Below, piece after piece: positions 50,030 to 60,305 of a DNA stretch of 64,000 nucleotides. The position numbers and the translations under genes are program-made. The notes beneath the pieces are model-generated. The model searched no databases, was not told the origin of the DNA, and saw only the letters and a program-made list of their open reading frames with translations. Origin of the DNA: Lentilactobacillus curieae (GTDB lineage Bacteria > Bacillota > Bacilli > Lactobacillales > Lactobacillaceae); contig NZ_CP018906.1 of the NCBI RefSeq assembly GCF_000785105.2, positions 1,674,001-1,738,000 of the forward strand, in the 5' to 3' direction. Every line of letters begins with the position of its first letter. The stretch's first letter is position 1.

Positions 50030-50275
50030 TTAATCTTTTTTTCCGATGAAGAATGAAACCACTAGTACCAAGACTACCGCACCAATAATTGATGGTACGA
50101 TTGCCATTTCAGCCACTTGTGGACCCCAATCACCGAGAATTGCTTCTCCTAATGAAGAACCAATCAGACCTGCAATAATGTTGGTGATGCAACCCATGGA
50201 CTTGCCACGGCCAGTAATTGCACCAGCAATCGCTCCAATTACAGCACCAACGATTAATACCCATATCCAGTGCAT
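50030..50275 (-). CDS. GlsB/YeaQ/YmgE family stress membrane protein
   Basis: 81 residues, three glycine-rich membrane helices (WVLIVGAVIGAIAGAITGRG, CITNIIAGLIGSSLGEAILG) in the transglycosylase-associated protein family, often induced by general stress. GGAGG ahead of ATG; that RBS lies within the end of the 43-residue ORF it overlaps (TAATG). Last gene of a three-gene operon. Confidence 0.88.
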   Translation of the reverse strand: MHWIWVLIVGAVIGAIAGAITGRGKSMGCITNIIAGLIGSSLGEAILGDWGPQVAEMAIVPSIIGAVVLVLVVSFFIGKKD

Positions 50276-50853: not shown

Positions 50854-51300
50854 ATGTTTAAAAATATTGCAGTAACTTTAGATGGAAGTGACAATTCAAA
50901 GGATGCACTGGCACAGGCGGTAGATATTGCGAAGTCGTCAGATGCTAAGTTGACTTTGGTTTCTGTAGTGAATGAAACTAGTTATTATTACATGGGAAAT
51001 ACATCTACCGTAGGGACTTCAATGATTCCAACGGATTTTAGAAGCACACAAAGAAAAGCTGCTCAAGATGTACTTGATAATGCTAAGGCTTATTGTGATC
51101 AACATGGTATTGATGTGGAAGTTAAGGTAGAAGAGGGAATCCCTAAGAGAGTGATTGTTGAGTCCTATGGTAAGGAAAAGGGATACGATTTGCTTGTGAT
51201 GGGTAAATCCGGAGTAGATGCTTTGAGTAGGGTGATTGTGGGGTCGACAACAGCCTATGTGGTTAGAAATTCAGACACTACTGTGATGGTAGTGGGATAG
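50854..51300 (+). CDS. universal stress protein UspA family, second copy
   Basis: 148 residues from ATG 50854 (GGAGG six bases ahead; the frame extends 11 codons upstream without RBS). Usp domain with VTLDGSDNSKDAL near the start and GKSGVDALSRVIVGSTTAYVV at the end. The stop codon at 51298-51300 is followed at once by the repeat array, with no terminator before 51701, so the array is probably its 3' UTR. Confidence 0.9.
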   Translation: MFKNIAVTLDGSDNSKDALAQAVDIAKSSDAKLTLVSVVNETSYYYMGNTSTVGTSMIPTDFRSTQRKAAQDVLDNAKAYCDQHGIDVEVKVEEGIPKRVIVESYGKEKGYDLLVMGKSGVDALSRVIVGSTTAYVVRNSDTTVMVVG

Positions 51301-51660
51301 GGAGCACTGCAGGAATCTATGATTCCGTCGCAGTGCCCCCACAACGATGACACATACTGAGCGTTGCGAGTAGCGACGGTCAGTCGTGACAGAGACTGTG
51401 ATGAGCCTGCAGGAATCTATGATTCCGTCGCAGTGCCCCCACAACGATGACACATACTGAGCGTTGCGAGTAGCGACGGTCAGTCGTGACAGAGACTGTG
51501 ATGAGCACTGCAGGAATCTATGATTCCGTCGCAGTGCCCCCACAAGGATGGGAGCACTACATGAATCTTCGATTCAGTCGTAGTGCCCCGACAAGAGCAT
51601 CAGTATGTGAATTCTGCGAACAGCAGGATTCACTCCTGATGCTTACTGTCACACATAGCA
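51301..51660 (+). repeat. tandem array of structured hairpin repeats
   Basis: Unit about 100 bp. Core AGGAATCTATGATTCC starts at 51311, 51411 and 51512 (spacing 100 and 101); the first two units are nearly identical, copy 2 lacking one base of the left arm. Hairpin A: arms GCACTGC 51304-51310 and GCAGTGC 51330-51336 around GGAATC-TAT-GATTCC. Hairpin B: ACTGA 51356-51360 with TCAGT 51380-51384, inner CGTTGC/GCGACG. A fourth, diverged unit has arms GCACTAC 51554-51560 and GTAGTGC 51580-51586 around TGAATC/GATTCA, compensating changes, then a larger hairpin GCATCAG 51597-51603 with CTGATGC 51636-51642 and inner GTGAAT/ATTCAC. G+C is higher than in flanking DNA. Confidence 0.88.
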
Positions 51661-51700
51661 CTGTCCTGCAGCAACTATTGGTGATCATTACTAAAACCAA

Positions 51701-51737
51701 AAAAGATCTACGATGGAAGTCATCGTAGATCTTTTCT
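51701..51737. terminator. bidirectional terminator after the repeat array
   Basis: AAAAGATCTACGATG-GAAGT-CATCGTAGATCTTTT, 15-bp perfect stem with T/A runs on both sides. Confidence 0.9.
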
Positions 51738-51768
51738 TGTGTGGTTCCCACGGGTTAACAAGCCTTTT

Positions 51769-60149: not shown

Positions 60150-60191
60150 TAAGCTCCGTGATATTGATCAGTGATATCAGGGAGCTTTTTA
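60150..60191 (+). terminator. terminator after argS
   Basis: AAGCTCC with TGATAT inner pairs against TGATATCA-GGGAGCTT, then T run. Confidence 0.85.
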
Positions 60192-60305
60192 TTTGCTAAA
60201 AGTTATTTTAAATTTGTTAAAGGGTAATTTAAGTTTTCTATGGCTTACCGGCCAATTAAGCTGGTTGTGATACAATATCCTGGTAATTATAAAAGGAGAT
60301 TTTGT

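Follow-up and report, generated by a model that had tools for sequence, protein, structure and literature searches.

A probably mobile, STAR-related hairpin repeat at the stop codon of usp in Lentilactobacillus curieae

The window analysed here, a stretch of 64,000 nucleotides from Lentilactobacillus curieae, holds a hairpin array (51300–51650) on the 3' side of the usp gene. This array comprises four copies of a first hairpin (H1) and three copies of a second one (H2), in the order H1-H2, H1-H2, H1 plus an H2 remnant, and H1-H2. The features of the locus are given below, where bit scores are those of R1, a covariance model of H1 made from 35 copies of L. curieae, Lentilactobacillus sp. Marseille-Q4993 and one Streptococcus.

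50854–51300, + strand: usp coding sequence, 148 aa by translation (Pfam PF00582 Usp, E=6e-31), with the stop codon TAG at 51298–51300
51300–51339, + strand: H1 copy 1, which overlaps usp by one base, the stop codon's final G also serving as the initial G of the hairpin (R1 76.2 bits)
51340–51400, + strand: H2 copy 1, subtype B, which does not exactly fit the 7-bp H2 form (fold and sequence)
51400–51439, + strand: H1 copy 2, with a 5' arm two bases shorter (R1 52.6 bits)
51440–51500, + strand: H2 copy 2, subtype B, with the same sequence as copy 1 (sequence)
51500–51540, + strand: H1 copy 3 (R1 66.5 bits)
51541–51549, + strand: H2 remnant of 9 nt (read from the sequence)
51550–51589, + strand: H1 copy 4, with the arms GCACTAC/GTAGTGC and TGAATC/GATTCA (R1 68.1 bits)
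51590–51650, + strand: H2 copy 3, subtype C, which fits GACA-AG-AGCATCA...TGATGCT-TAC-TGTC (motif pattern)
51696–51740, no strand assigned: terminator-like inverted repeat 3' of the array, with 20-nt arms that are 90% complementary and lie 5 nt apart

A 48-nt family starts in the window at 51302, 51402, 51503, and 51552 (spacing of 100, 101, and 49), and its copies are 100, 90, 98, and 75% identical to the first one. The segments 51307–51406 and 51407–51506 are identical successive 100-nt units, TRF reports a period of 100 with 2.5 copies and 97% matches, and the predicted fold of 51301–51750 reaches -204.4 kcal/mol (z = -12.6), with 0 of 100 shuffles equally stable. The tandem hairpin array that a sequence-only reading had placed after usp is therefore confirmed by the repeat search, TRF, and the fold. 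That reading had the array begin directly after the usp stop codon, which it does abut, but its true start lies one base earlier, as the G of TAG (51300) is also the first G of the basal GGG. The first two units, to which both hairpins had been ascribed, do contain H1 and H2, but the 5' arm of the second is short of two bases and its lower stem is damaged; the third has no H2 and retains the 9-nt remnant alone. The fourth unit is more than the drifted copy of the first it was taken for, its H1 and H2 representing a subtype whose two hairpins also co-occur elsewhere in the genome. The terminator reported near the array end corresponds to the inverted repeat at 51696–51740.

Element-adjacent terminators fall into repeated types: those of the L. 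curieae loci L006 and L011 and the one in the window at 51696–51740 have CTACGATG/CATCGTAG stems in common, and others (L009, L010, L016, and L019–L021) share GTTATAATTTCA stems. The window also holds a short tandem repeat at 60191–60240 (period 21, 2.4 copies) and, near usp at 50030–50275 on the minus strand, a gene for a small transglycosylase-associated membrane protein (PF04226), which may belong to a group of stress genes.

H1 opens with GGG and a bulged A, followed by a 7-bp stem, an internal loop that sets an A against GTC, a distal stem with at least 6 pairs, a loop, and a closing CCC. All four window copies fit this form (52.6–76.2 bits with R1, which was built partly from L. curieae copies). 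An H1-like hairpin at position 157591 of the L. curieae genome (L098:1492–1539), matched on either strand, is an almost perfect palindrome that lacks the GTC internal loop. In most groups, H2 follows the form NNCA-AG-7 bp-distal stem-7 bp-TAC-TGNN, which the last window copy fits, unlike the two of subtype B. A strict first version of this form was found in 72 of 203 copies (1/43 in L. curieae). A relaxed version, which allows one mispair, requires AC in the 3' internal loop and was chosen after the strict hits had been seen, is present in 124/203 copies versus 57/4060 shuffles and 1/199 control stretches. By group, it is held by 14/43 copies from L. curieae, 8/19 from other Lentilactobacillus, 28/41 from other Lactobacillaceae, 41/47 from Streptococcus and others, and 33/53 from Staphylococcus.

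The arms of H1 change together. In alignment A1, two-sided changes are found at 11 of 16 pairs (6.2 in shuffles, 1/500 of which came as high) and 94.5% of the cells pair, figures that are inflated because A1 was gathered by a script requiring pairing and seven apparent chance hits were dropped by eye. Arm changes like those of A1 are also seen in copies collected by BLAST from sequence alone and by motif regular expressions. Across all genera, the 75 different arm pairs have on average 5.76 of 7 positions paired, compared to 4.10 with permuted partners, and 0/2000 permutations reach this value. The evidence for the selection on structure proposed for the array is provided by the whole family, the four units of the window, from which it had been deduced, being too few as proof.

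This element is dispersed in the L. curieae genome, where R1 gives at least 45 matches at E<0.001 and at least 53 at E<0.1 (150 of the 1129 candidates being scored), and BLAST of the array gives 26 matches, including the array itself and a weak terminator match. More than one H1 is present in 11 of 29 L. curieae lead loci. The number of genome-wide H1 matches does not support the usp-specific RNA or 3' UTR that had been proposed; the REP/MITE-like option offered beside it fares better, the element being a structured, covarying, dispersed repeat. The search of Lactobacillaceae with a covariance model, which the same reading had suggested, was run with R1, and 19/397 genomes match, including 3/24 of the genus Lentilactobacillus. 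Matches were also obtained in 58/395 genomes of the order, 48 of them from genus g43 (Streptococcus), and in 52/398 genomes of the class, belonging to 3 of 146 genera (own genus 1, g43 24, and g108 27, the latter taken as Staphylococcus from its STAR features), all these taxon-wide counts being lower bounds due to strict filters and the scoring of 15 candidates per genome. The two-hairpin element is accordingly patchy in Lactobacillaceae and frequent in Streptococcus, and matches in distant genera have E values down to 1e-13. Plasmid and phage records gave no match at 1e-5. In two loci of one genome (L252 and L254, G1021), the whole H1-H2 unit is repeated in tandem with a period of ~131 bp and up to 7 H1 matches.

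Rfam holds no match above gathering, either for the array (best E 0.82) or for 10 further loci (0 matches). To this extent the absence of a known family stands, but a relative is known, since the start signature of the S. aureus STAR elements lies in H1. According to the passages cited of Purves 2012 (PMC3532100), STAR loci of S. aureus begin with the start signature GTGGGACAGAAATGAT; these passages leave unexplained what STAR elements do, where they come from, and how they spread, and call for a search beyond staphylococci. In a hairpin of H1 type, GTGGGACAGAAATGAT forms the 5' arm. The pattern GTGGGACAGAAATGATN{5,35}TTTCGTCGTCCCAC has 17 matches in 3/84 g108 genomes (12, 4, and 1), and the reversed-pattern control has 0. 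A STAR motif lies up to 500 nt downstream of 12 of these 17 hairpins, and the remaining g108 hairpins include H1 directly followed by H2 (GGCAAGGTTGACT...AGTCAACTACTGCC), which together place the STAR units between H1 and H2. The 14-bp STAR motif T(G/A/T)TGTTG(G/T)GGCCC(C/A), searched as TNTGTTGNGGCCC, has 0 occurrences in the window and 0 in 62 L. curieae loci, so that the array is related to STAR loci without being a STAR element. The exact start signature GTGGGACAGAAATGAT is likewise absent from the window and the 62 loci; full-length L. curieae copies carry GTGGGACAGAAAGC in its place, with a homologous position and hairpin in common. No earlier report linking these repeats to STAR was found in the open-access literature searched. 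A paper on the ftnA 3' UTR (PMC9093591) was discarded as evidence, the match in the passage concerned being a primer.

The position of the element with respect to genes is best seen by comparison with relatives. In the congeners G013 and G380, the usp orthologs lack the element and stop at the identical codon position, using TAA, and the gap is 60–62 bp versus 475 bp in L. curieae. For eight further stop-fused L. curieae loci, orthologs were sought in three relatives: six loci have one that is element-free with an identical end codon, the ortholog of L024 runs three codons further, and L047 has no ortholog in these three. In four of the six element-free ortholog sets, a TAG or TGA of L. curieae is replaced by TAA in one relative or more, and the stop codon is unchanged in L040 (TAG) and L051 (TAA). 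The stops of 40 long window ORFs are TAA in 25 cases, TAG in 11, and TGA in 4. As element-free relatives end at the same codon, the element has been gained right at the natural stop codon; these comparisons demonstrate that it came in at existing stops, in many cases behind their TA, with the protein unchanged. Insertion at stop codons that is exact to the base is unusual for a repeat, and it offers a route by which the 3' UTRs of unrelated genes of lactic acid bacteria gain one structured tail.

Stop fusion was defined as an element start at offset 0 to +2, counting same-strand ORFs that end within 150 nt. It applies to 9/21 elements in L. curieae (9/19 without L049 and L050, each of which lies behind another hairpin and was counted as a lead element), 4/10 in Lentilactobacillus relatives, and 8/30 in other Lactobacillaceae. 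In Streptococcus and others it reaches 12/27, the streptococcal cases not being independent because they include orthologous sites (one gene in ~10 loci), and in Staphylococcus 1/18, the lead hairpin alone of each array having been entered. By arm class, stop fusion is found in 2/75 lead elements with TGGGACA-like arms and 32/98 with other arms, with the limits that the classes were set by regular expressions (which misplace at least L065) and that the streptococcal cases are non-independent. The adjacency to the usp stop codon, formerly read as a sign of a usp RNA, is instead a general trait of one element class.

TGGGACA-type copies are often preceded by an A-run (21/30 cases in Streptococcus and 5/10 in L. 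curieae), and end in the inverse motif followed by T-rich sequence. Full-length copies show imperfect terminal inverted repeats TGGGACAGAA...TTTTGTCCCA, and on 7 of 9 L. curieae TGGGACA-type copies the right end conforms to the TTTTGTCCCAGCCTC type, as determined by regular expression. Terminal inverted repeats are also found on the streptococcal copies; in the window array the arms have diverged and no repeat can be recognised on the right-hand side. Streptococcal copies measure 174–176 bp from GAG to CTC, with a median identity of 96% among 17 copies from three genomes. At one streptococcal site, 30 orthologous loci comprise 12 with a forward copy, 1 with an inverted copy, and 17 without an H1 match (one of them with a degenerate resemblance). 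The inverted copy (L206, in G723), compared with L194–L205, is the 175-bp element flanked by the same sequences. No target site duplication was seen by eye in the flanks, the right boundary in the window being uncertain. Insertion inside a terminator stem is not supported by the flanks of 18 non-redundant streptococcal copies, which have a mean complementarity of 5.5 versus 5.8 in permuted flanks (p = 0.81).

The ends of the IS1272/IS1182 elements, TGGGACATAAAT...TGTCCCA, resemble those of the repeat, which itself carries no transposase. IS1272, in the passages cited of Wan 2017 (PMC5678879) and Furi 2016 (PMC4923244), replaces terminator stem-loops in both orientations without target duplication, at sites just downstream of genes. 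Stem-loop replacement in both orientations fits the site preference of the element and its inverted copy. One genome (G1167) encodes an IS1182 transposase of 548 aa (452 bits, cut-off 270), a length also reported for IS1272. Related IS copies in G1167 have TGGGACATAAATCCC at their start and TTAATGTCCCA at their end, and an exact 12-base match, TGGGACATAAAT, is found at IS ends. In the congener G264 (L302), a partial IS1182-type gene of 545 aa (279 bits versus a cut-off of 270, positions 129–486 matched) probably encodes a shortened transposase, and the IS ends are GAGGCTGGGACATAAGTCCC and its inverse. A stop codon suspected at this IS end was dismissed, the upstream frame holding other stops. 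With up to one mismatch, TGGGACAKAAAT occurs 8 times in 13 IS loci versus 0.6 expected, six of these at likely ends and four of the six belonging to one IS. The TGGGACA core is common to the ends of the element and of the IS1182 family, as seen in few independent IS types. The IS1182-type transposase domain PF13751 has 0 matches in the L. curieae genome, and is present in 4/10 element-rich and 1/7 element-poor genomes, which makes the association by presence weak.

Taken together, we consider it rather likely that the array is a STAR-related, non-autonomous mobile repeat of a two-hairpin superfamily, the step involving IS1182 included. Mobility is supported by the dispersal, patchy distribution, empty sites, and conserved grammar with covarying arms, as well as by insertion at natural stops, the imperfect terminal inverted repeats, and the inverted streptococcal copy. 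The link to IS1182 is inferred from sequence resemblance. An IS1182-family (IS1272-like) transposase would recognise the element ends in trans and, with no duplication of the target, join them in or close to the stem-loops of terminators, and the array would then grow by slippage or unequal recombination. It would be transcribed as the usp 3' UTR, its pairing being kept because the hairpins, as DNA or RNA, would be needed for propagation and not for usp. Several observations stand against this mobile-repeat reading. The L. curieae genome has neither PF13751 nor a Y1 transposase, and the association with PF13751 is weak. The window array has diverged arms and lacks a recognisable right-hand repeat, and the flank complementarity in streptococci does not exceed that of permuted flanks. 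Moreover, stop fusion belongs to the arm-diverged class rather than to the copies with IS-like ends, replacement of the IS1182 type does not by itself explain it, and TGGGACA/TGTCCCA is also found in ordinary terminators, so convergence is possible for some of the resemblance.

These objections give some room to a mobile repeat moved by another enzyme, with IS1182-like ends that would be coincidental sequences of terminator type. The lack of PF13751 in the L. curieae genome, a stop-codon fusion that is no described habit of IS1182, and the TGGGACA hairpins of ordinary terminators all agree with it, but the exact 12-base match at the G1167 IS ends and the excess of TGGGACAKAAAT in IS loci (four occurrences being copies of one IS) make it rather unlikely.

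Still less probable is a structured 3' UTR or processed RNA that is cotranscribed with usp, controls the stability or translation of usp, and has its hairpins kept by selection on the host transcript. Hairpins adjacent to stop codons can act on translation, as known from work on REP sequences in E. coli, and the array, which starts in the usp stop codon, precedes a terminator, has a fold with z = -12.6 and belongs to a family with covarying arms. However, the usp orthologs of G013 and G380 have no array, the same element is found behind many unrelated genes, and no Rfam family matches. A usp-specific RNA is consequently rejected as the main reading, since the element is scattered over the genome and two congeners have none behind usp, although the array may still have a secondary function in the 3' UTR of usp. 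Finally, REP-type palindromes moved by a Y1 tyrosine transposase (RAYT) are very unlikely: hairpins that are short and imperfect, have an invariant internal loop and occur close to the 3' ends of genes, in dimers or clusters, are reminiscent of REPs (Di Nocera 2013, PMC3733652), but Y1_Tnp is missing from the L. curieae genome and from 8/14 element-bearing genomes, no GTAG tag was seen at the hairpin foot, and the five phyla in which the cited passages of that paper place CGTC-tagged REPs do not include Firmicutes.

Returning to the mobile-repeat reading, its extension to the whole superfamily (Lactobacillaceae, Streptococcus, and Staphylococcus, STAR included) is offered tentatively, as somewhat short of probable: its members would be passengers of hairpin-recognising IS1182-type transposases and exist in two forms, one with IS-like ends near terminators and a derived one with free-running arms, in or directly after stop codons. 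If this is true, the derived form rewrites the 3' ends of transcripts while leaving the proteins unaltered. The IS1182 family would then be a testable candidate mobiliser for STAR-related elements.

As a kind of finding, a dispersed structured repeat is ordinary, but this one ties STAR to a wider family, with stop-codon precision and a candidate mobiliser. Like BOX, RUP, and SPRITE, the element is small, interspersed, and structured, modular or terminator-like, and located downstream of genes, and RUP and BOX are thought to be mobilised by IS transposases (Croucher 2011, PMC3049150). As described in the cited text of that paper, these repeats are set apart by lacking the H1/H2 grammar, and SPRITE has 28% GC and one 18-bp duplex; the identification of the streptococcal copies as SPRITE is ruled out by the composition and structure described there (PMC3049150). 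REPs of the GTAG and CGTC superfamilies are also short palindromes clustered near gene ends, but CGTC REPs hold their tag at the palindrome end, whereas the GTC of this element is internal (PMC3733652, passages cited). STAR, as far as described in the cited passages of PMC3532100, shares with it an intergenic location, tandem variability, and a different placement in each species. It differs in a start signature unlike the window arms and in having its units, in the S. aureus-like loci, between H1 and H2, whereas the repeating unit of the window array is H1-H2 as a whole. The H1 model thus supplies relatives of STAR beyond staphylococci, and puts the STAR units inside a wider two-hairpin element.
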